DNA from: Tomocerus qinae
Taxonomy: Eukaryota > Arthropoda > Collembola > Entomobryomorpha > Tomoceridae
Assembly: GCA_020055645.1 (NCBI GenBank)
Contig: CM034546.1
Span: forward strand, 87,048,001-87,112,000
DNA length: 64,000 nucleotides
Direction of reading: 5' to 3'
Made by a program: the position numbers and the translations under genes. How positions within the stretch are numbered: the first letter of the stretch is position 1; each line of letters opens with the position of its first letter. Shown one piece after another: positions 80 to 58,589 of the stretch. The notes beneath the pieces are model-generated. The model did not search any database. It saw only the letters and a list, made by a program, of their open reading frames with translations, and had not been told where the DNA came from.

Positions 80-2101
80 TTAGCGTAAATTAATTTTAGT
101 GTGATATTCAGTGAAACATGGAATTTTACACAGTGATACATTACAAGCTCTACACCGAAAAGCTGTCTGCGTTGTGATTTTTTTGATGCTGCATACGTGA
201 CATCGTCTTAAACCATGAACCCTTTTCCTCGTTGGAGAATTATATTGAATATTATGGTCTTTTAAATTCCCAAAACGTAGAGGGTTGTTTCCACTTGACC
301 TTTGTTCTGAGACCTGCGAATTGACTTGTGTAGCTTCTAGAATACCTCGAATCAAATCCAATCTAAAGTCCAAAAAAGATTGTCGAGAGTTGATTGATTT
401 GGAAATGCAGTATGCATTGTATATACATAAGTCGATGAGGTGAAAGAAAACTTTCTTGTACCATTTTTGAGTCTTGCGTAAAATACTGTAAAAATGGCAC
501 ATCATGTCACTAAGGTCTATACCGCGAGCGTTTTGATTATAGTCGATAACTGTCTGCGGCTTAATGAGAGTAATTCCAGTGCCTCGCTTTTGAACTTCAT
601 TCATTTCATGACTATGGACAGTGGAAATCATCCTTACAATTTTCTTGTCCTTCCAATACTCAACCATGACACCATTGCTGCTGTAAGCCTCTACTTCACC
701 TCTTTTCATTCGTTTGTTAGTAAGGAGGGGCATATTTTTTCTGTTCTGTCTTACGGTTCCACACATATAGGTGTTTCTCATCAGTAATTCATACGCAAGA
801 TTTGGAGAACTGAACCAGTTGTCCATAAAGACTTGATGATTTTTGTCAAGAAAGGTTCTCAATAATTCCATTACGACTGCTCCGCCATAGCCAAAATCCT
901 TAGTTGAGTAAAGGAAAACATGTCCCTTTCCAGTGTAAATGATGCATCCTATTACGAATCCAGTCTGATTGTCCACAATGGAAAATATCTTAATACCAAA
1001 TCTATATCTTTTTGAGGGAATGTATTGCTTGAAATATAAGCGACCTTTGTACAGCAACAAACTCTCATCAATGGATAAGGATTTGCCCGGTTTAATTAGA
1101 TCTTTGAAATTTTGCATACACTTTTCCCAAATTGGTCGTATTTTTCGTAGTCGATCTTCATTTTGAATTTCGTTTTCATTAAAATGCAGATAGCGATGAA
1201 CTTCTTTGAAACGATCTGAACTCATTATTTTTGGAATAATTGGAGATGCTAGCAATGGATCCTTGGACCAATAGTTACTTATCTCAGGTTTCTTATTGAT
1301 TCCCATCAGCATTCGGATAGCAATGACTTTCATGAATTCATCACTATTGATGTCCTTAAATGCCTCCATTCGCCTGCTTACATTTTCAGAATTGAGAATT
1401 TCTTCTTCAGCAAATTTATTTGTTTGTGTTACGCAATAGTTGATGCAGTCGTCGGTAAAACATAGCTTGAAGTAGTCCAAAGCTTTTCGATTTGGATCCT
1501 GGGAAAATGTCCATCCAGTCGAGGTGCTGTCAAAATCATTAACTATTGGTCCTGTGGTAGGAGTAGGAGGAACCCAGTTCCATTGTAAAGGTGTTGCAGT
1601 GATTGGCGTGTTAGGAGAATCTGTAAAAATCAACTTTGGAAATTAGGCAATTCGCATGTCGGCATTGTGAATTGAATAAAAGTGTAAGTAATGTTTACCC
1701 CCAGCTAAGTCATTTCCTTCTTGACTAAAAGTTTCTTCTTCAGTTCTGGCTAACAATCTTGCCCACAAGTCATTTTGGAAGCCGCTTCTAGAACTACTAC
1801 TGCTGGAACTGCTGCTGCTGGAACTGCTGCTACTGGAACTGCTGCTGCTGGAACTGCTGCTGCTGGAACTGCTGCTGCTGGAACTGCTACTGCTGGAACT
1901 ACTACTGCTGGAACTGCTGCTGCTGGAACTACTACTGCTGGAACTGCTGCTGCTGGAACTACTACTGCTGGAACTACTACTGCTGGAACTGCTGCTGCTG
2001 GAACTGCTGCTGCTGGAACTTCTGGAATTACTTCTGCGGCTTTTCCGACCTCTGCCAGTAGAGCTACTGCTAATATTGCTTGACTTACCACTATTGCCCA
2101 T
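80..2101 (-). CDS. piggyBac transposase, two exons
   Basis: Cuts and inserts the element at TTAA sites (DDE_Tnp_1_7 family). Exon 1 is 2101-1699 and exon 2 is 1620-80. The 78-bp intron (1698-1621) has a GGGG|GTAAAC donor and a TTTTTACAG acceptor and joins the frames in phase 1. Counting from residue 1 of the exon 2 frame, catalytic aspartates lie in SIDES (about 189), VFMDNWFSS (about 271) and GIDLSDMM (about 373). The C-terminus carries a cysteine-rich zinc-binding tail (CHVC, CRAC, CKIPC) like that which binds piggyBac ends. Exon 1 encodes a basic Ser/Arg start, then about 75 consecutive serines from a 15-bp tandem repeat. No stop or frameshift is visible, so the copy may be recent. The start ATG at 2101 is the first in frame, but splicing was not tested. 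Confidence 0.9.
1775..2034. repeat. 15-bp CTG-rich minisatellite inside the piggyBac exon 1
   Basis: Tandem copies of GGAACTGCTGCTGCT with CTG/CTA variants, about 17 units. Read on the minus strand it encodes an uninterrupted serine run. The 15-bp unit is a multiple of three, so length change keeps the reading frame. It also creates long spurious open frames of Ala/Val and Thr/Ala in the other phases. Confidence 0.9.
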
Positions 2102-2324
2102 TTTAAAACTTTTATTTGATTCACTATATCTGCTGCTATCTGCTCTATTGTTGATGTATGAAAACTAAATTGAAAGTTCAATGAAAGTGATTTTCTCTCG
2201 TCAGTGACAAAAGTCATCAAACCCCATGGAAAGTCATGTGATATAAACAATGACTTATGTCATCACCCCACGAAACCACTGGCAACATTGATGATGACCT
2301 ATGTCATCGTCCCACGGCAAAGGG

Positions 2325-2328
2325 TTAA
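2325..2328. other. TTAA target site at the piggyBac 5' end
   Basis: TTAA immediately outside the CCCTTTGCC terminus. This is the expected one-sided view of the 4-bp target duplication made by piggyBac; the partner site is outside the window. Confidence 0.8.
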
Positions 2329-2909
2329 CGTATTTTATATTGTGTAGGGATATGTGAAGTAACTTTGTTTTGTGAACTTGTACTAAATTACAAAATTGTG
2401 GTATTGAAAACATGCTAAGTAAAATGTGGTCAAATAAAACAATCTCAGTTTCGTGGCAAGGCAATTCAAGTGATGCACGCATGGGTATCATGTTCTGGGA
2501 TTTTGTGCTAAGGAACTAAGATAAGAGATTATGCGACATAACATGTTACCTGACAATACTTATTATTAAGGGACTACATAATATTATTTATCCCCGTAGA
2601 CTTACATGACATACTTACACTAGTTGAATCCTAGCACACAAAGTGTGCTAGAAAATGTTGAAATGAGTAAATTTCTAGCTACTGCGCAATTTCATGGACC
2701 GTTGATTAGACTCAGTACTGATAGTCTAGTCCTTGGTCATTAATTACAAAATATTCCCGTTACTCTTTAGTTACAAAATATTACGGACAAATATACAAAC
2801 CTTAATACATTAATACAGAATTCCATGCGCATGTCCCACTTTTGTTTAAAAGATTATGTTTATGTAGAGTAAAGATACTTAATTACTTAATATAATACAT
2901 TATTACAAT
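2329..2909. other. AT-rich spacer, nothing recognised
   Basis: No open frame with recognisable content, no inverted repeat longer than a few bases and no tandem array was seen between the piggyBac end and the ACGAGCCCGTC repeat. Confidence 0.5.
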
Positions 2910-2990
2910 ACGAGCCCGTCAATAGACCCAAGCCGTCACTATACGCAGGCCTTAACAAAAATGCGAATTAATTCGCACGACAGGATTCTA
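2910..2990 (+). repeat. Helentron/DINE-like terminal sequence, fragment
   Basis: Begins ACGAGCCCGTC and continues through a short palindrome (TGCGAATTAATTCGCA) to GGATTCTAGATGG. The same order of motifs occurs at 24107 (plus) and at 16718 (minus): ACGAGCCCGTC, then a GTGAA..TTCAC hairpin, then GGAAxCTAGCTT. The other two copies lead into 20-bp minisatellites; this one does not and looks truncated. Confidence 0.5.
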
Positions 2991-3064
2991 GATGGATTTG
3001 CCTGGAATTGAATGTGAGATAGTAAGGCCATCACACCAACTCACCAACCTCCTTACTTCTCACA

Positions 3065-3260
3065 CCCAAACAGAGCCCCCAGCCGTGATGGTCAGACTCT
3101 GCCGCCGCCGTTTTATGGTCAAGTTTGCTATCAGTCGCCGCCGCGCCACTGATGGGGAAAAATACATGAAACTGATGAAACCATATGACGGCCACCGTTT
3201 TTCCCAACATTTCCAGCCGCCGCGGCCACTAAATATCACGACTGGGAGCTCTGCATGTCT
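3065..3260. repeat. GC-rich inverted-repeat fragment
   Basis: Outer arms AGAGCCCCCAGCCGTGAT (3074-3091) and ATCACGACTGGGAGCTCT (3236-3253) are inverted, with CCGCCGCCG-rich sequence between. The right half recurs at 22348-22390 (CCACTAAATATCACGGCTGG), so this is a dispersed element. The superfamily is not assigned. Confidence 0.5.
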
Positions 3261-3357
3261 AATTGCAAACAATTTTTAATAGATTGAAAATCAACTGATA
3301 ATGACATCACAATCACAAATCGTGATAGCAATAGGATTAGGAAGAGTATGGCCTTAA

Positions 3358-26069: not shown

Positions 26070-26952
26070 TATTGTCATCGTGAAGTAACATCGTTTGTAC
26101 AGAAAAGATACGAATCATATCCCTTCTATACTAACCAAGTTTCCATAGGGTTAGATTTGTCGCCCGTCCGGTGTGTGTTAAAATGGGTTTTAACGTGTGA
26201 AAGCTATGTCACGCCTTACTGCCCTGTACGAAAGTCATTTTGGATATGATCGCTATAGGCTGTTTCCAGTTTCGGGGCAGGAATGTGAAAAACATTTAAA
26301 ATTGGGCAATGGTTATTTTCAGTATGCACTGTGTACAACCTTAATTTTGTAATTATCAATTTTTGAAACCTAACTCATTACAAATTAATGATAAAAACAT
26401 GAAGCTACGGATGATGGATAGTTGCGTTGTTAGAAGAAATCAATGAAATATTTACATTTTACGTATTTAAATGAGAATACAGATATAGTACTGCACTTTG
26501 CAATAGTTGTGGAGGTCATTTTTGCGTCTCATTGGATTTTGTAGCCAGTAAGTCCAGGAAATAAATAGCAAAGACAGGGGACGAAAGCGCGGTGAGAAGG
26601 CAGAGTTAAATTGCAATAAGATACCCGCATATTTAGAATTGATCCACATATTACGTAATCAAAAAATTTATCGGTTTTTAGAAACACCGTTTCCCTCAGT
26701 CATCCCTAATCATTGCCCAATTTTAAATGTTTTTCACATTCCTGCCCCGAAACTGGAAACAGCCTAGCGATCATATCCAAAATGACTTTCGTACAGGGCA
26801 GTATCAGGTGTGACATAGTTTTCACACGTTAAAACCCATTTTAACACACACCGGACGGGCGACAAATCTAACCCTATGGAAACTTGGTTAGTATAAAAGG
26901 GATACGATTCGTAACTTTTCTGTACAAACGATGTTAGTTCACGATGACAATA
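26070..26952. mobile_element. Long-inverted-repeat element A, copy 1 (0.88 kb)
   Basis: Arms begin TATTGTCATCGTGAA and pass through ACATCGTTTGTACAGAAAAG, GGGTTAGATTTG, CACACACCGGACGGGCGAC and CCTGCCCCGAAACTGGAAAC, about 260 bp on each side. The centre (CTAATTCATTACAAATTAATGATAAAAACATG..) is non-coding. Related copies are at 32301-36983 and 54033-55913. The family is not one I can name and no transposase was found in it. Confidence 0.65.
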
Positions 26953-27434
26953 CAATAAATGCAATTTTTGACTAATTTTATACTAATTAATAATATTTGA
27001 AACTGTATAACCTATAAAGTGCCAAATAAATCCATTATAATATGTTACACATCTGACATCAAAATCGTAGCGTATGTGCTTCCTATATTATTGTACAGAT
27101 TGTACTTAATGTGTTTTCAATTCTACAGCTTGGTTGAAAAACTAGAAATGGCACATTACTTGGCGGGAAAATAAATGAAAAAGCATCCATGGGTAAAACT
27201 AAATAGATTACTATACGATTATTTTTATGTTCTAAAATTTCCATATCAAACTGACAGAATTTACAATTTTGCTTTTATTGTCAATATTAGATGTTAATTC
27301 TTAAAATATTTAAAATCACAATTTTGCTTCCAATGTTCATAATCCAAGTTTATTCTAAACTTTTTCCCGCAATACAATATATCCTGTAGAAGTTTTAACA
27401 TAATTGTTACAGGTACTTTAGTTTGAGATTTAAT
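26953..27434. other. Spacer, nothing recognised
   Basis: AT-rich, no gene, array or inverted repeat noticed. Confidence 0.4.
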
Positions 27435-30109: not shown

Positions 30110-30365
30110 GAGTTTTTCACTTATTCGTTACAGGCTTATACAACGTGAATAGAAATCATGGCAACCCTTTTACCCTTTCCCCATACAACGTGAAGACAAT
30201 AGAACATTTTGCCCTCTTTCTGCAGCCAGTTTGAAATCATTAGGACATCATCTAAGGGGAAAACTGGGTGCAGTTAGACTAGTCTTTGGTACACTGCAAA
30301 TTCTCCAAGATTGAACTGAGGAAGTTAATTTAACACTGCGAATAATATTAATATTATTGAGTAGA

Positions 30366-30575
30366 ATGGCAAGTTGTGTGATCAGTTTCTGTCTGAACAA
30401 TCAGCGGAACATCAATTACAATGGCAAACCGCATGTCACCTTCCACAGGTTCCCTAAAAATGAAGAATGGATATCTATTTGCAAAATTACAAATAAGGAA
30501 CCTCGTTACTTGTGTAATGCTAAATGCTCGGAGCATTTTCTTCCAAAGGACTTTCAAGCTAATGGACGTACTATG
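30366..30575 (+). pseudogene. THAP zinc-finger exon, left arm copy
   Basis: MASCVISFCLNNQ, then HVTFHRFPKNEEWISIC, then CNAKCSEHFLPKDF. This gives a C-x4-C...C-x2-H THAP module, the sequence-specific DNA-binding fold of P-element transposases. After residue DF the frame continues into unrelated sequence, so no transposase body follows. The right-arm copy is identical over the module. Confidence 0.7.
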
Positions 30576-31477
30576 ACTAAAATCAATATCCTCATTGCAT
30601 TGGCTGAATTTAGGCAGTGGTATCTCATTTCCTCCGTTTCCTCCAAAATGCCACATTACCTATTATTATATTTATTGCCTCCCGTAACTATTTTTGCCTC
30701 TTTTCTGGCCCAATCTAATAAAAAATAAACATAAATAACAAGTAACATTTTTATTACGTTAGGTCAGCAAAGAGGCAAACATAGTGACGGGGTAAAGAAT
30801 GTTAAGGTATTTTATTAAGTTTGGAGGAAACAGATAATACGTTATGTGGCACCTTGGAGGAAACGGGATTTGAGGAAACGGAGGAATTGAAATCCTGCTG
30901 CTTAAATTCAATCATTCTGATTTCCCGAACACTCAACGGTTCCTTTAAATATGAAAAGTGGCCACCTAAATACAAAGTAAACATTTTTTAAGAACAACCA
31001 ACCACTAAAATATTAGGACAATATTAACCATGATGAAAGACAATTAAAATATAAGGAAATGCCACCGACATACCCATTTTGAAACAGCAGGTCAGATCAT
31101 TCGGATTTATTTGGCATGTGAGGAAGTCAAGTTGATTACTTGCTTTCGTATTTGAATCTCACGCTTCCAAGCGTACAATTTCATGAATTTCGTTCACGAC
31201 GACCCCCTTGATTAGGGGAGGGGACGTTCAGATATTGTCCCGGATTTAAGAGATACGAAGCACGGAATCTACGGTTCCATTAAGAATACTGTTTCCGGAG
31301 GTCTAAGGATAATTAACTCGGCTGGATTTAGGCAGCGGGATCTCGTTGCCTCAAGTTTCAAATAGACTACCTTGAATTTTGAAATGACAAAGGCAGAAAT
31401 GGCTATTAAATCTATTCTAATTTTTATTTCAAAGCTAACTCGGAATTTTTTGTGTTGGAGTAGGTTTGCTTCGTTAA

Positions 31478-31682
31478 ATTCATAGTACGTCCATAAGTCC
31501 TTTGGAAGAAAATGCTCCGAGCATTTAGCATTACACAAGTAACGAGGTTCCTTATTTGTAATTTTGCAAATAGATATCCATTCTTCATTTTTAGGGAACC
31601 TGTGGAAGGTGACATGCGGTTTGCCATTGTAATTGATGTTCCGCTGATTGTTCAGACAGAAACTGATCACACAACTTGCCAT
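31478..31682 (-). pseudogene. THAP zinc-finger exon, right arm copy
   Basis: Inverted duplicate of the THAP module at 30366-30575 with the same C-x4-C and C-x2-H ligands. It continues as KDLWTYYEFNEANLL with no catalytic domain. Near-identity of the arms implies recent duplication or conversion. Confidence 0.7.
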
Positions 31683-32438
31683 TCTACTCAATAATATTAA
31701 TATTATTCGCAGTGTTAAATTAACTTCCTCAGTTCAATCTTGGAGAATTTGCAGTGTACCAAAGACTAGTCTAACTGCACCCAGTTTTCCCCTTAGATGA
31801 TGTCCTAAATATTTCAAACTGGCTGCAGAAAGAGGGCAAAATGTTCTATTGTCTTCACGTTGTATGGGGAAAGGGTAAAAGGGTTGCCATGATTTCTATT
31901 CACGTTGGGCTTATAGCTACTGGCCTTACATCTCCCAAAATCTAAATAAACACATATAAGGCGGGCAATAAATGAGCGCTTCTTTTTTGCAAGTCTTATC
32001 TTACAGTTACTATTAATAATAAGATAAAAACTGCCTTCCAAAACATGTGAAAGAAGTATGAATTTTGAATTTACGCTCTCATTTGGTCAATAAGTCAACC
32101 TAAATGTTGCGTTTTCTTGTAGATGTAAGTCAAGTAAGCCGAAAAACATGCCTTTCGGCGTGGTTTCGGTTTACTTGATTTTGACATTGGAAAAGGCCGG
32201 GAGCTTACATCATAAACGTTACTCGGCTTACAAGAGAAGTAAGCTCAGTAACATGTAACCCGATGTAACCTATGTAACGAATAAGTGAAAAACCCTATTA
32301 TATTGTTCTCGTGAGCAAACATCGTCTGTACAGAAAAGATACGAACCCTATCCCTTCAATACTAAAATCAGTTTCCATAGGGTTAGATTTGTGGCCCGTC
32401 CTGTGTGTGTTAAAATGGGTTTTAACCTGTGAAAGCTA

Positions 32439-32869
32439 CTGTTTGAATCACCCAACGTCAGTCCTCTCTACATAAAAGTCTACATTGAAAGGGAAACTGG
32501 TACTAATAAAATAGATGATTCATAGTTCATGGCATAAAATTTATATTGTAATATACCTGCATAAGGCGTGCATGTAAATAGCTCGATATATACATTTCTC
32601 ACTCTCATCGCTCAATATCATATTACAGAATGAATGTCTACTTGAAATGAAAACTATTAGGCAATAAAATAGATGATTCATGATATGACTGAATTGTAGC
32701 TTGTAACAATTCAAAACTTGCTAAAATGTCCCCATTTGGGTAATCTATAGAATTTTCGTCCTAGAAATAGCCAATCAGAAGGCTGGATTTCAAAAAATTT
32801 CAGCCAATCAGAAGGCTTATCGCCATACCACAGGGCAACCAGAGGTCTGACGATGGCTGATTCTAACAG
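32439..32869. mobile_element. 431-bp TA-flanked MITE nested in element A
   Basis: Ends CTGTTTGAATCACCC and CTGTTAGAATCAGCC (complement), flanked by TA at 32437-32438 and 32870-32871. Element A reads GTGAAAGCTATGTCACGCC at 54140 but here GTGAAAGCTA-insert-TATGTCACG. That proves insertion with TA duplication, as in Tc1/mariner-type elements. Confidence 0.85.
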
Positions 32870-33732
32870 TATGTCACGCCCTACTGCCCTGTACGAAAGT
32901 CATTTGGATATGATCGCTAGGCTGTTTCCAGTTTCGGGGCAGGAATGTGAAAAACATAAAATTGGGCAATGGTTATTTTCAGTCTGCACTCTGTACATGT
33001 TCAAACCAATTACCTTTTTATTAACCTTAATTGTAATTATCAATTATTGAAACGTAACTTATTACAAATTAATGATAAAAACATGAAGCTATGGATGATG
33101 GATAGTTGTTGTTAGAAGAAATCAATGAAATATTTACATTTTACGTATTTAAATGAGAATAAAGATATAGCACTGCACTTTGAAATAGTTGTGGAGGTCA
33201 TTGTTGCGTCTCATTGGATGTTGTAGCCAGTAAGTCCAGGAAATAAATAGCAAAGATAGGGGACGAAAGCGGTGAGAAGGCCGAGTTAAATTGTAATAAG
33301 GTACCCACATATTTAGAGTTGATCCACATATGCAAGCACGTATGCAGAACTGAGTTTCGGAGGGGGCTAGATTTCCAATAGATATTTTAAGTATATATAT
33401 TCGCGCTCGTATTATATAGCGCGAAAATTTTTGGCATTTTTTGAAGGAAATGAGTCAAAAATGGCAAATAATCGCGCGGAGCGCGAAAGTTTTTGCTATT
33501 TTGAGAAAAAAATTCCCTTTTTCTTGGATTTCGGGGGGGGGGGAGGCTTCAGCCCGTAAAGCCCATCCCTAAATACGTCCTTGCACATATTATGTGTGCC
33601 AACGGGAATAAACCATAACACTCGTGTAGTAAGAGTTCTGAAAAGTAGTAAGCCTCCTCGTAGTAACCATACCCGAAGTCCACTACGACAAGCACCCAAC
33701 ACCAATAACTGTGTCACACTGCAGCAATGTAA

Positions 33733-34200: not shown

Positions 34201-35161
34201 CTATTTTCGAACTCTTATCATTATCATTCATTTGATATGCGATAGTGGCACAGTAACTCTCACTTAGCTTATTACACATTATGTACATAGTAAATACTAT
34301 TCGTAGTTATAGTTTATTCACAATTGCCACAATGTGTGTAAGGGCAGATATTAGATATTGCATAGAAGAATGGGTATAGGTTGAAGTGACAATATTATTC
34401 CTTCCGTCCGATATACCGATATGGCACTGTACTATATCTTATTATATTACAGATAGTACAGTGCAATATTCTCATTTAAATAAGTACTAAATAGAAATAG
34501 ACCAAAAAATTTCAATTCAAATTAATTAATTAAATGTTGACATTTGATGACAGAGGGAAAAGGTGTTTCTAAAAAACGATAAATTTTTTGATTACGTAAT
34601 ATTATGTGGATCAACTCTAAATATGTGGGTACCTTATTGCAATTTAACTCGGCCTTCTCACCGCTTTCGTCCCCTGTCTTTGCTATTTATTTCCTGGACT
34701 TACTGGCTACAACATGCAATGAGACGCAACAATGACCTCCACAACTATTTCAAAGTGCAGTGCTATATCTGTATTCTCATTTAAATACGTAAAATGTAAA
34801 TATTTCATTGATTTCTTCTAACAACAACTATCCATCATCCGTAGCTTCATGTTTTTATCATTAATTTGTAATAAGTTACGTTTCAATAATTGATAATTAC
34901 AATTAAGGTTAATAAAAAGGTAATTGGTTTGAACATGTACAGAGTGCAGACTGAAAATAACCATTGCCCAATTTTATGTTTTTCACATTCCTGCCCCGAA
35001 ACTGGAAACAGCCTAGCGATCATATCCAAATGACTTTTGTACAGGGCAGTAGGGCGTGACATAGCTTTCACAGGTTAAAACCCATTTTAACACACACAGG
35101 ACGGGCGACAAATCTAACCCTATGGAAACTGATTTTAGTATTGAAGGGATAGGGTTCGCAT

Positions 35162-36936
35162 CAAGATTTATAAACCGTAGTTTCCATGAACACTGACAGG
35201 TTGGCTTGTCAGGACGATGAAAAATAAAAAATCACTTTTTTCCTCCTGGACCCAATTTTCCCCCAATTTGAGTCCAGGTCACCGATACCGACTGTTGCAT
35301 AATTAATTAAATAAGTTACAATGTCGAAATGCGCTATCAAAGGGTGTCCCAACGCTCGGAGACTAAAAGGAAATCTTACAAAACTTTACTCTTTGCATAG
35401 ATTACCTAATGATTTGGAAATTCGCAAACAATGGCTCTCCATTTGTGGCTTAGAGGAAAATAGTTCCGGAAAAGAATGTCGACGTATATGTAATCGACAT
35501 TTTTCGAGTCAAAACTTTAAGACAGACACAAGAGGTAGAAAAATACTTAAGTCAAGAGCTACACCGGCATTATTTTTGAAAGGTAGCTAATAATTATTAC
35601 TTACGTATAGATATACAAATCTATCCAACTTGATGCAACCGTTACTATTACTGTTAATAATTATTAGGACTACCACTGCCTCAACATCAGTTTACTATTA
35701 AGCTTCCTACATCTGGCAACGATCATAAGTACTTCGTAGCACAGCTTGACAATGGGATAGTCATTAAGATCACGTAATAACCAGAAATTCGAGTATAAAA
35801 ACTAAAACTACATATTAATAGGGTTTTGTTCCTTAGTTTTGAAAATGAAAATGATTTGTCGCCCCATCCGGAGGTCATAGAAGGTCATTCGCAGATTGCC
35901 ACAAATCACAACACAACTATGTCTCCTGATATCGATGATGAAACAAATCGTTTAAAACAGATAATAAAATCTTGTAGACAAGCTAAGGCCAGGAAGATTA
36001 GAAAGGACAGATTAAAGCGACTTCGGGAAACAGGCAGATTGAAAGCTTTGAGTGATAAAGTAAAACTACTGCAAGATGAACTAAGCCGAAAAAAAACGGA
36101 ATGCATAACCATGTACAAAACTGCAAAGTCCGAAGTACTTGCAAACTTCGAAACGATTTTCTCGGAAAAACAATTAAAAATGATTTTGACTAAACAGAAA
36201 AAGGCCATGTGGACAGAAGAGGATATATCGAAGTCAATTTCTCTCAGAACAAAATCTACTAGCTGTTACCGCTTTGTACGAGATGTTTATAGAATTCCTT
36301 TGCCTGGAGTATCAACGCTAAAACATTACTGTCAAAAGATTGAAATGAACCCTGGGATTCAATTTAGTGTACTGAATCTGTTGAAACAAGATTTTTTAAA
36401 CTTCACTCCTCAGGATCAAGAGATGCTAGATGATTGGAAAGGCTCGTGTGAAAACACTAGTGGATAATATTTCGCTTAATATTTGATTTATAATACTTGT
36501 ATGTCTGTTTGTTTCGTTTAAAATGTAATTAGTAAATTTTTGCTGTATTTGTTGAATAATGATTTTTGTTTTGCTTGCTTTGTGTAGTATGATTATTATT
36601 ATTGGAGAGCTATTATTATTATTGTATAAGATAAAAGAATATTATTAAGAGAGGGGTATTTCTGAAAAAACAAGAGCTGTGACCGATTTGTGGGACATCT
36701 TCTTTTCCTGAACTATTTTCCTCTAAGCCACAAATCATTAGGAAATTTAATTTAATCCGCATTTCGATATTGTAACTTGACATAGTTATTATGACATTCG
36801 ACATAGTCGGTATCGGTGACCTGGACTCAAATTGGGGGAAAATTGGGTCCAGGAGGAAAAAAGTGATTTTTTATTTTTCATCGTCCTGACAAGCCAACCT
36901 GTCAGTGTTCATGGAAACTACGGTTTATAAATCTTG
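35162..36936 (+). mobile_element. P-superfamily THAP element, 1.78 kb, 9-bp duplication
   Basis: Terminal repeats start CAAGATTTATAAACCGTAG and are identical for about 130 bp on both sides. GGTTCGCAT stands immediately outside at 35153-35161 and 36937-36945. The insertion splits the right arm of element A, giving an empty-site comparison at 55890. It carries a spliced THAP gene on the plus strand. Beyond the terminal repeat the 3' side also has an inverted, degraded copy of the THAP exon (ICGLEENSSGKE), so the element is a foldback of its own 5' end. Confidence 0.85.
35321..36467 (+). CDS. THAP-domain P-type protein lacking the catalytic domain, three exons
   Basis: Exons 35321-35582, 35668-35773 and 35837-36467 join in frame. 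Junctions are AAAG|GTAGCT to TTATTAG, and ATCAC|GTAATA to CCTTAG, in phases 1 and 2. Exon 1 is a complete THAP finger (CAIKGC, HRLP, W, CNRHF). Exon 2 encodes a short linker with HQFTIKLP. Exon 3 encodes a basic coiled coil (about 60 residues, KARKIRKDRLKRLRE..KLLQDEL) and then the helix-turn-helix-like region before the RNase H fold (WTEEDISKSISL, IPLPGVSTL, PGIQFSVLNLL). It stops at a TAA just where the first catalytic Asp segment (AYDEM in the 56.4-kb copy) should follow. By analogy with P-element truncated repressors it could bind element ends and block transposition; that is inference. Confidence 0.75.
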
Positions 36937-36983
36937 GGTTCGCATCTTTTCTGTACAGACGATGTTTGCTCACGAGAACAATA

Positions 36984-54006: not shown

Positions 54007-54032
54007 AGTATTGTAACAATGACGAAAGGTCG

Positions 54033-55913
54033 TCTGTACAGTAAAGATACGAACCCTATCCCTTTAATGCTAAAATCAGTTTCCATAGGGTTAGATTTGT
54101 CGCCCGTCCGGTGTGTGTTAAAATGGGTTTTAACCTGTGAAAGCTATGTCACGCCTTACTGCCCTGTACGAAAGTCATTTGGATATGATCGCTAGGCTGT
54201 TTCCAGTTTCGGGGCAGGAATGTGAAAAACATATAAAATTGGGCAATGGTTATTTTCAGTCTGCACTCTGTACATGTTCAAACAAATTACCTTTTTATTA
54301 ACCTTAATTGTAATTATCAATTATTGAAACGTAACTCATTACTAATTAATGATAAAAACATGAAGCTACGGATGATGGATAGTTGTTATTAGAAGAAATC
54401 AATGAAATATTTACATTTTACGTATTTAAATGAGAATACAGATATAGCACTGCACTTTGAAATAGTTGTGGAGGTCATTGTTGCGTCTCATTGGATGTTG
54501 TAGCCAGTAAGTCCACGAAATAAATAGCAAAGACAGGGGACGAAAGCGGTGAGAAGGCCGAGTTAAAGTGCAATAAGGTACCCACATATTTAGAGTTGAT
54601 CCACATATTACGTAATCAAAAAATTTATCGTTTTTTAGAAACACCTTTTCCCTCTGTCATCAAATGTCAACATTTAATTAGTTAACTTGAATTGAAAATG
54701 TTTATTTTCATTTTTTGGTTTATTTATTACCCGATTCTATTTAGTACTTATTTAAATGAGAATATTGCACTGTACTATCTGTAATATAATAAGATATAGT
54801 ACAGTGCCATATCGGTATATCGGACGGAAGGAATATATATTGTCACTTCAACCTACCCATTCTTCTTTGCAATATCTAATATCTTCCCTTACACACATTG
54901 TGTCAATTGTGAATATACTATATACGAATAGTATTTACTATGTACATAATGTGTAATAAGCTAAGTGAGAGTTACTGTGCCACTATCGCATATCAGATGA
55001 ATGATAATGTGAATTAGGATAATAATTATAATTAGGGCAATTAACATCATAGTTTTTACAGTTATGTTTTATAATTTAAGCTTACAGACTTAGTTAACAT
55101 TATGGACAACCGAAAGTTTCTAGGCATATAGTCATTCTATTTCGTCTAGCTCTAAGACATTCTTCTTCCTCTCTCAACTTTTCAGCCTGTCGCTCAACCT
55201 CTTCCATTTCTTTCTCCTTATCAGCTTGTATCTGTGCCTGTAATATTTTACGCTGCTTTTCTGCGATCTAATTAAATGTTGACATTTGATGACAGAGGGA
55301 AAAGGTGTTTCTAAAAAACGATAATTTTTTTGATTACGTAATATGTGGATCAACTCTAAATATGTGGGTACCTTATTGCAATTTAACTCGGCCTTTTCAC
55401 CGCTTTCGTCCCCTGTCTTTGCTATTTATTTCCTGGACTTACTGGCTACAACATCCAATGAGACGCAACAATGACCTCCACAACTATTTCAAAGTGCAGT
55501 GCCATATCTGTATTCTCATTTAAATACGTAAAATGTAAATATTTCATTGATTTCTTCTAATAACAACTATCCATCATCCGTAGCTTCATGTTTTTATCAT
55601 TAATTAGTAATGAGTTACGTTTCAATAATTGATAATTACAATTAAGGTTAATAAAAAGGTAATTTGTTTGAACATGTACAGAGTGCAGACTGAAAATAAC
55701 CATTGCCCAATTTTATATGTTTTTCACATTCCTGCCCCGAAACTGGAAACAGCCTAGCGATCATATCCAAATGACTTTCGTACAGGGCAGTAAGGCGTGA
55801 CATAGCTTTCACAGGTTAAAACCCATTTTAACACACACCGGACGGGCGACAAATCTAACCCTATGGAAACTGATTTTAGCATTAAAGGGATAGGGTTCGT
55901 ATCTTTACTGTAC
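54033..55913. mobile_element. Long-inverted-repeat element A, copy 3 (1.9 kb)
   Basis: Arms of about 640 bp (54033-54675 and 55270-55913) run from GTCTGTACAG(T/A)AAAGATACG to GACATTTGATGACAGAGGG with high identity. The centre 54676-55020 matches 34210-34555 of copy 2 in reverse. The remaining centre includes a coiled-coil coding segment on the minus strand. The left tip is cut by or adjoins the 53741-54006 MITE, and the right tip runs into the CAGGGTGG repeat. Confidence 0.65.
55100..55267 (-). CDS. Coiled-coil C-terminal exon of unknown gene
   Basis: After an acceptor (TTAATTAG at 55269-55268) the frame reads AEKQRKILQAQIQADKEKEM, then EEVERQAEKLREEEECLRAR and ends TICLETFGCP with TAA, 55 residues. 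It is highly charged and heptad-like, with no start codon upstream, so it looks like a last exon. It may be the remnant of element A's own protein or a captured host exon. I cannot name it. Confidence 0.4.
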   Translation of the reverse strand: MAEKQRKILQAQIQADKEKEMEEVERQAEKLREEEECLRARRNRMTICLETFGCP

Positions 55914-56225
55914 AGGGTGGTCCAGAATGAACCGGAATTTTAACTTTGACTCTTAATAATTCTGCAGTAGGTAACTGTATTGAGACTAAAATAGTAGCAT
56001 CTGAAAGAGGATGCGTTTCTTAGTCAGAATTAAAATTATGGACACAATTGTAACGCAAAAACAGACTAAAGAAGGATGAGAAAAAATTAAAAACGACAAA
56101 ATCTTGTAAAATTTACATTTTAAAAAATTTAATTTTCACATTTAATGTTTGAAATGAAAATGGCGAGATTGACGATAGAGCAGAAAGTGTAAGAATGAAG
56201 AGGTAAAAAAAGTTCAAATTCAGTT
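55914..56225 (+). repeat. Single arm of the CAGGGTGG foldback family
   Basis: Matches the left arm of 19312-20418 from TACAGGGTGGxCCAGAATGA through GGTAACT, GCATCTGAAAGA and GCGAGA-TGACGA. It stops at AAAGTTCAAATT; the second arm is missing. Confidence 0.65.
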
Positions 56226-56392
56226 TCCGGCTGCAGTTTTATGTTCCAAAAGAGTAGGAGAACTCTGATATCAAATGCAGTGCCAAGCATTAACCTCCCT
56301 GGTGTGGCCCTTTAATGCTTTTATTCATAGTCATTCATTCCTAAAAATTGGCAAATAATTATTTTATCCTCTAAAAAACTTTTGTTAACTCT

Positions 56393-58589
56393 TTGGGCAT
56401 AGACAAAAGTAAATCTGTACAATCAAGAGAGATGATGAAAACTTTACAAGAAAATGTTAAAGCACTTGAAAAACTTAATAAAAAGCTACAGGAACGAGTA
56501 AATAATTCAGAATCTATCCTAAAAAGATTGTTTACTCCAGTACAAATCAAAATGTTAAAAAATAACAACGCAAAAACTCACTGGACTTCTAAAGAAATGG
56601 CCAAAGCAATACAGATGCAAATGACATCTCCCAAAGCATATGAGATTTTGAGAACCGAGTGGAAGCTACCACTGCCGTGCAAAAGAACGATTCAAAAGTG
56701 GACGTCGGAAATAGTTTTCAAACCGGGAATACAGCATTCCGTGTTAAACATGATGACTGAAACTTTTAAAGAATCCTCTTTCAGAAATCGCCAATGTATC
56801 ATAGCTTACGATGAAATGGCAGTAGACAGTTACGTATGTTACGATGCTAAAAATGACGTCATCCTAGGGCCACATAAGAAGATGCTTGTTATAGCAATCA
56901 GAGGAGTGTACGGAGATTGGAAACAGCCTGCCTATTTTGGTTTTGATGTTAAACTCTCTAAAGATTTATTTGTTAATGTGGTAGAAGCTATTCAAAATTC
57001 TGGGCTAAATGTAGATGGTAGGTAATAGTTTTGGAAAATGAGATAAATACCTAATCCTATTAAATTCCTAATCAGCCGATTGCTATATGAAATATATTTC
57101 CTTCCAAAGGTATGGTCAGTGACCTGGCTACTACAAATAGGGGTCTTTGGAAGGAATACGGTGGAGTAACTGAGGAGTGTCCATTCATAAGAAATCCTGT
57201 AACTGGTGAACCAATTTGGGTGTTCCCCGATTTCATTTATCTTTTAAAACTTCTACGGAATAACATTATGGACCACGGTTTTATACTGAGAAATGGTCAT
57301 TCAATCATGCGATCACACTACCAAACTCTGGTTAATGCTAACAATTCTGAATTGACGGTGGCTTATAAGATAAATCAAAAGCATTTGGACGTGATTGGAA
57401 GAGAAAGAATGGATGCAAGACTAGCTTTCGAAACACTATCAAACTCTGCAGCCAATTGTTTTGAAAATGTTCTCAAATTGCCACATGTTGCAGAATTTGT
57501 GCGACTTGTCAATAATTCAAGTGATATTTTGAATTCGAGGGTTCCAATAAATGACAACCCTTATAAATCCGCTTTTGGAAAGCACTATGCACAACAAACT
57601 GAACTTTTGGACCGTTTTGGTGATGAAATTAGGGAAATGAGAGCATATGAGATCAGATTAAAAGATGGAATAAAGAAATCCAGGATGCCTTTTCTGAATG
57701 GAATTTTGATTTATTTGGCATCGTTAAAAGGTCTATATCAACAAATGCATGAAGATCCTTTGATTAAAAACAAATACATTTTGACAGCCAGATTAAACCA
57801 GGATTTTTTGGAAAACATATTCAGTTGTGTCAGAGGATTAGGAGTTTTCAATCAACATCCTTCACCTTTAGAATGCATTTACAGGTTAAAAACACTCGTA
57901 CTTACACGAAGCCTGAGGAGCCCAAAAAGTTGCTCTGTTTCTTCCGAAGATAAATGGAGCAACGAAACCACCTTATTACAGTGCGATATTTTAGATTATC
58001 TAGGAAATAATCTCAACGAGAATCGTTCGCTAGAGGCACAATGGGAATTAGAAGCTAGAGAATTTGGATCAGTGTCTAAAATTCAAGATATGGACATTAA
58101 TACAGTGGTAATCTCTGCAGATAATTGGCTTGATATGAATGAATCTTTGACATTCAAAGAGCAATGTGAATTAGGAGGTGAGGAATATGTGGCTGGATTT
58201 ATAGTAGGGAAAATGAAAAAGTTTAACCCCCAGCTTCAAATAAGTCAAGAATTGAGGGAGCGAGTTCCACTGAGTTGGACCCAAACCGTAGCAAGAGGAG
58301 ATTTATGTACTCCCTCTTACGACTTCCTCAACTTATTTAAGAAAATGAATCAATGCTTTGTGTTGTACCATCAATCGGATGATAAATGGGACCTTAACAG
58401 AAAAACGGTGTCATGAAATTACTCCAACAAGGATTAGAACTTAAATTTCCGGACGTAGATGCTAAAATAATTAAGTTGTTTGTAAAAATAAGAACTCATA
58501 TACGAATTGGTTACATAAACAGTTTGGCTAAGCTCAAGCGTAGTCAATCGTCATATATGCAACGAGTTCTAAGATCGAATATTGAATAA
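56393..58589 (+). pseudogene. P-element-type transposase (THAP9-like body), late frameshift
   Basis: Exon 56393-57017 and exon 57110-58416 join across a 92-bp intron (GATG|GTAGGT, CCAAAG) in phase 1. A coiled coil (about 35 residues) is followed by a DNA-binding helix region (HWTSKEMAKAIQM). The catalytic domain has IIAYDEMAVDS (first Asp), GMVSDLATTNRGLWKEYG (second Asp) and NQDFLENIFSCVRG (Glu), the order seen in P and THAP9 transposases. The frame then stops at 58416, but the family's C-terminal helix block (LLQQGLELKFPDVDAKIIKLF..) continues in another frame to 58589. One base is probably lost in the A-run near 58397. No THAP exon was found upstream; a repeat fragment occupies that place. 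Confidence 0.85.

Follow-up and report, generated by a model that had tools for sequence, protein, structure and literature searches.

We describe here a 1775-bp element of the P superfamily, located at positions 35162–36936 of the 64,000-nt stretch of Tomocerus qinae DNA that was analysed (the window). Judged by sequence comparison, it very probably arose from a P-superfamily transposon through an internal deletion of the KP kind, was moved in trans and acts on its family, if it represses it, as a by-product of the deletion. The comparisons show the features expected of such a derivative: a full-length element of the same family is present in the genome, an internal deletion has removed the catalytic residues, and the ends are kept. 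In addition, an open frame with THAP and dimerisation segments is predicted in two of the three copies that share the deletion junction.

Boundaries, insertion site and predicted product

The element is bounded by two terminal inverted repeats (TIRs) of 132 bp, one starting with CAAG at its 5' end (35162–35293, plus strand) and one at its 3' end (36805–36936, minus strand), which are 100% complementary, and it is flanked on the left (35153–35161) and on the right (36937–36945) by the same 9-bp target-site duplication, GGTTCGCAT. The original prediction of identical terminal repeats and a perfect target duplication was therefore correct. P-superfamily terminal repeats have CA...TG ends, as do the CAAG...CTTG ends found here. 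The 24-nt tip of the repeat occurs at only two sites in the window when up to three mismatches are allowed, for a chance expectation of 0.00. The element has inserted into a different repeat, which is present more than once in the window, and other copies of this host repeat provide the empty site that defines the duplication: those at 32.3, 54.0 and 55.9 kb are uninterrupted at the insertion point and show no gaps, and those at 26.1 and 26.9 kb are also uninterrupted there, with one gap each. The host repeat family, which by reading is palindromic, has several copies in the window (26070–26957, 32301–33331, 54009–55914, and 34219–36983, which hosts the element).

Pieces of exon 1 are found in inverted orientation inside the 3' end (36700–36793), in the window element and in the full-length copy A described below alike. 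On the minus strand, 36 nt at 36700–36735 repeat positions 35441–35476 of exon 1 with 97% identity and extend the terminal palindrome, and copy A has this piece too; sequence comparison reveals a more diverged inverted copy (78%) of 35298–35333, around the start codon, at 36758–36793, also on the minus strand. The terminal palindrome thus formerly extended into the THAP coding sequence.

Three exons on the plus strand, separated, as had been predicted, by GT-AG introns of 85 nt (35583–35667) and 63 nt (35774–35836), join into 999 nt that encode a protein of 332 amino acids (AA) with a THAP, coiled-coil and helix–turn–helix (HTH) organization and without catalytic residues. Exon 1 (35321–35582) carries the start codon and the THAP zinc finger, which matches the Pfam THAP domain (AA 4–85, 4.6e-15) and the THAP1 structure (1.4e-4), with zinc ligands C4, C9, C57 and H60 read from the sequence. 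In the gene model, exon 2 (35668–35773) encodes a linker. Exon 3 (35837–36467) encodes the coiled-coil and HTH region, crosses the deletion junction and ends with the native C-terminal 15 codons and the stop, as deduced from Pfam, from homology with the P transposase structure 6p5a and from copy A. The coiled coil was assigned by reading and by 6p5a homology, the dimerisation segment by 6p5a homology, and the Pfam Tnp_P_element HTH match to the product (0.019, 15.8 bits) lies below its cut-off of 23 bits. The match to P transposase 6p5a (6.6e-4) covers residues 192–310 of the product and falls in the part of 6p5a that precedes the catalytic Asp. The window element retains only the N-terminal part of a P/THAP9-type transposase.

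Full-length copies, the deletion junction and the spread of the short form

A search for related copies in the genome had been proposed together with the original prediction; carried out on the DNA of the same genome (a 334-Mb assembly in which the window is C1:87048001-87112000), it returned 133 matching pieces, from which 16 copies were extracted, including the full-length copy A and two further copies, D1 and D2, that have the same deletion junction as the window element. This set excludes nine loci that are fragments or older copies (L058–L066), the single-ended L010 and the end-only L016–L018. Telomere-like arrays of the genome, among the matches listed, are of the TTAGG type, which is compatible with an arthropod but is no proof of one. 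Exact 9-bp duplications flank 14 of the 14 copies that have both ends, a count that omits S_C2_62.9 and S_C4_28, each of which is without one end as extracted.

Copy A (C2:47609958-47613469, 3512 bp) shares the three exons of the window element, and its frame runs for 912 codons without interruption. It matches the P transposase 6p5a at 6.6e-71, and its residues D324, D398 and E621 align to D230, D303 and E531 of 6p5a, the D/D/E triad of P transposase being named in PMC8230255 (excerpt). Pfam places THAP, RNaseH_N and GBD above their cut-offs, and RNaseH_C (20.3 bits, cut-off 24) and HTH (17 bits, cut-off 23) below them. Copy A has all the parts by which a P-superfamily transposase is recognized, namely THAP, HTH, a split RNase H with a GTP-binding insertion and D/D/E. 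Compared with copy A, the window element is 99.4% identical over bases 1–1256 and 98.1% identical over the last 519, where there are three gaps; bases 1257–2996 of copy A (1740 bp, 580 codons) are missing from it at a plus-strand junction between 36417 and 36418. The loss is in frame and no bases are shared at the junction. Downstream of it, comparison with copy A identifies plus-strand positions 36418–36467 as the C-terminus EMLDDWKGSCENTSG and stop codon retained from the full-length transposase, so that the last 15 residues of the 332-AA product are the full-length protein's own. The claim that the product ends exactly before the RNase H fold is thus nearly right: the last shared residue, 316, sits 8 residues before the first catalytic Asp, D324, but residues 294–316 fall within the start of the RNaseH_N match of copy A (294–411), and the native 15-residue tail follows. 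Within the first 1256 bases, five changes are private to copy A, which is therefore a sister of the window element and not its proven parent. With its predicted transposase, copy A is the best helper candidate found.

A second P-type transposase had been noted at 56.4 kb as a full-length relative. This frame (56375–58416) does encode a P-type transposase (Pfam RNaseH_N 8.7e-10, GBD 2.7e-13), but not a close full-length relative, as it is only 35% identical to copy A over residues 180–803 and a tblastn search of the whole window with two THAP queries found no THAP exon beside it. It was rejected as a helper on account of this low identity, of the lack of a nearby THAP match and because it belongs to another family; searching the genome gave one further near-full copy of it (C1:3904145-3906616, 99%). 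By reading, the frame stops short of where the family C-terminus would lie. The genome is rich in P-type transposases, with at least 157 RNaseH_N matches (150 of 257 candidates scored). Window positions 30141–31907 hold a palindromic P-type derivative of a second family, with terminal repeats of about 436 bp (97.7%) and a THAP exon in both arms; 10 other near-full-length copies at 95–99% are present among the matches listed, 8-bp duplications flank 6 of 6 copies examined, and C4:31764306-31767972 is likely a full-length relative, also with a THAP exon in both inverted ends. Positions 80–1642 (minus strand) contain a 520-codon piggyBac-like transposase frame (Pfam DDE_Tnp_1_7, 1.9e-82).

Five copies of full-length size were examined, and the transposase frame is open in one (copy A) and broken in the other four (P1–P4), which are 95.5–95.6% identical to the window element over bases 1–1254. 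Over the three exons, the window element differs from P1–P4 by 24–25 synonymous and 12–14 nonsynonymous changes in 312–315 codons, the broken copies being compared column by column with gapped and stop codons skipped. The resulting pN/pS of 0.13–0.16 indicates that the spliced gene model represents a real protein, and the three-exon model fits a protein that would have been spliced and translated in the history of the family, a result that does not bear on selection after the deletion. The dN/dS comparison proposed earlier found no coding differences between the window element and D1. The two introns differ from those of P1–P4 at just 4 of 148 sites (2.7%), compared with about 12% for synonymous sites.

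D1 (C1:9359976-9361750) differs from the window element at 3 of 1775 nt, all noncoding, and encodes an identical 332-AA protein. D2 (C2:29040195-29044111; locus L014) is frameshifted either at the coiled coil or immediately ahead of it and carries an insertion of 2.1 kb. The ends of this insert (CAAGGTGAGTG.../...CTCACCTTG) and its apparent 8-bp duplication (GTCCAGGA) were also noted; the insert may be a further P-type element that landed in the terminal repeat of a P-type one. The window element, D1 and D2 are flanked by three different 9-bp duplications. The presence of one junction at three sites, each with its own duplication, argues that the truncated form itself spread after the deletion, in agreement with the predicted recent spread of a P-type element with an open THAP protein devoid of a catalytic domain. 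Most likely, as far as sequences tell, the short form transposed after the deletion using a transposase made elsewhere, in trans, although the deletion may instead have been copied into full-length insertions by gap repair. Recent movement had first been deduced from the identical terminal repeats; the conclusion stands, and this use of the repeats as a clock was rejected, since the full-length copy A also has only 1 mismatch in 132. A better argument for recent spread is that copies at different sites are nearly identical.

Transposition of the short form in trans fits the following history. Relative to copy A, an in-frame loss of 580 codons took away the D/D/E residues, together with the GTP-binding insertion and almost the whole C-terminal domain. 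The short form retained its ends, its introns and the open 332-AA frame, and the deletion is now at three sites; a transposase of the copy A type, recognizing the shared ends, would have moved it in trans. Less certainly, the product, if transcribed and spliced, retains the THAP finger along with the HTH and dimerisation segments, and would then bind where transposase binds in the terminal repeats and pair with it in inactive mixed dimers. Transposition of the family would then be lowered as a by-product of the deletion, not as a maintained adaptation.

Repressor, passenger or host gene

A repressor function of the 332-AA product is plausible by analogy. Putative P repressors were defined as having a DNA-binding domain that is intact and a transposase that is interrupted (PMC12393704, excerpt), and the window element shows both. 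These sequence criteria are lax, as nine of 15 copies, besides the window element and D1, predict a THAP product without a complete transposase (D2, P1–P4, S_C1_131, S_C1_101, S_C2_44.5 and S_C1_32.0); products were predicted for 15 of the 16 copies, S_C1_119, in which the 5' exons are absent, being omitted. Among the nine, the products of P2, P3 and P4 extend past the coiled coil and HTH and break off only in the catalytic region. S_C1_101 (C1:101945570-101946709), one of the smaller deletion derivatives, was truncated separately and has an open frame of 228 AA with THAP and most of the coiled coil.

The stronger proposal, namely that the truncated protein is expressed and that selection maintains it for curbing the family's transposition in trans, as KP does in Drosophila, is possible but somewhat doubtful. 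It draws on the extent of the retained part, which slightly exceeds the KP-homologous region (P residue 199, which we take to mark the extent of KP, aligns near Q 291), on the full open frame of two of the three junction-sharing copies, and on the second, independent truncation that leaves the 228-AA frame open. The third junction-sharing copy, D2, is frameshifted, and the nine copies, D2 among them, that keep THAP without a complete transposase weaken the argument. The clean frame itself is unremarkable: when 20,000 random deletions of copy A were simulated, starting in exon 3 before D324 (left ends from bases 676–1280, right ends from 1300–3340), the native C-terminus was kept in 27% of them and the tail was at most 20 residues in 62%, the simulation bearing on frame and tail and not on retention of the N-terminal domains. 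We therefore rejected the in-frame cut as a sign of selection. The three private substitutions among the junction-sharing copies are all noncoding, as a selected frame would have it, but the chance that all three miss the coding 56% is about 8% by simple arithmetic, and three substitutions are too few to test selection on the truncated frame. The sole clade-specific coding change, A256S, is nonsynonymous. That the 332-AA product and, independently, the 228-AA product (C1:101.9 Mb) are dominant KP-type repressors of a still-active P family outside drosophilids is a suggestion by analogy that we consider unlikely.

Alternatively, the short elements may be plain non-autonomous passengers, mobile through their ends alone, with a protein that is not made or is inert, and we give this an even chance of being true. 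S_C1_119 and S_C2_71.8, in which the THAP exon is damaged or absent, carry perfect 9-bp duplications, although the damage could postdate insertion, and internally deleted P elements are preferentially mobilized (PMC12393704, excerpt). The frame and splice sites are intact in two of the three junction-sharing copies, which tells against this reading; this weighs little, because so young a deletion leaves them intact either way. A last possibility is that a domesticated THAP gene of the host was picked up between two transposon ends. P-derived THAP genes have been domesticated more than once; Quesneville is reported to have described such repeated domestication in 2005, in a paper listed among the references of PMC1562414. 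This is highly improbable here, and was dropped, given the perfect terminal repeats and target duplication, the nesting in a repeat, the two near-identical copies and the full-length transposon relative: a multi-copy, recently spread state contradicts it.

With the KP-like deletion derivative as the preferred reading, one genome contains a matched set composed of an apparently intact P-type transposase, a derivative without the catalytic half and the ends that they share. Such a set would let one ask directly whether KP-style self-limitation holds for P-type transposons in general or is peculiar to Drosophila.

Comparison with known P-type systems

The 9-bp target duplication is a small oddity within the P superfamily. 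Duplications are of 8 bp for P and zebrafish P (PMC7776569, excerpt) and for Anopheles P (PMC1562414, excerpt), and of 7, rarely 8, bp for Galileo (PMC4168063, excerpt), and the present family departs from all of these; we count it as a P-superfamily variant because the transposase match is decisive. The portions of the open-licence literature that were consulted for a 9-bp P-superfamily case led to Tetris, a Drosophila foldback element with 8–10 bp duplications, placed in Mutator by its authors, and a prior report elsewhere is possible. The family should be useful for asking how P-type transposases space their target cuts.

KP is widely spread, and like KP the short form is one deletion form found at several sites, in which an internal deletion takes the catalytic region while THAP, the dimerisation segments and the ends remain. 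In contrast with KP, the window element was deleted in frame, with the last 15 codons of the full-length protein preserved, and its 332-AA product includes the HTH region, compared with 207 AA for KP. Repression is established for KP, whereas for the window element it is plausible by analogy. The 207-AA KP and the 66-kDa protein are the Drosophila precedents for truncated repressors (PMC7776569, excerpt). The somatic 66-kDa repressor is likewise a truncated THAP-bearing transposase product, but it results from retention of intron 3 in a full-length element and is minus the C-terminal third only (PMC7776569, excerpt), whereas here the DNA itself is deleted. The terminal repeats of Drosophila P are also shorter, 31 bp instead of 132, and its duplications are of 8 bp instead of 9 (PMC7776569, excerpt). 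Galileo resembles the present family in its long terminal repeats, THAP-bearing transposase and internally deleted copies (PMC3688188 and PMC4168063, excerpts); however, its terminal repeats reach 1.2 kb (PMC3688188, excerpt) and its 7-bp, rarely 8-bp, duplications (PMC4168063, excerpt) differ from the 9 bp seen here in 14 of 14 copies. Finally, the P elements and P-MITEs of Anopheles gambiae are, as here, non-Drosophila P families with THAP proteins and non-autonomous relatives (PMC1562414, excerpt), but six P-MITE consensuses have a central region unrelated to P (PMC1562414, excerpt), whereas the short form described here has an open THAP frame.
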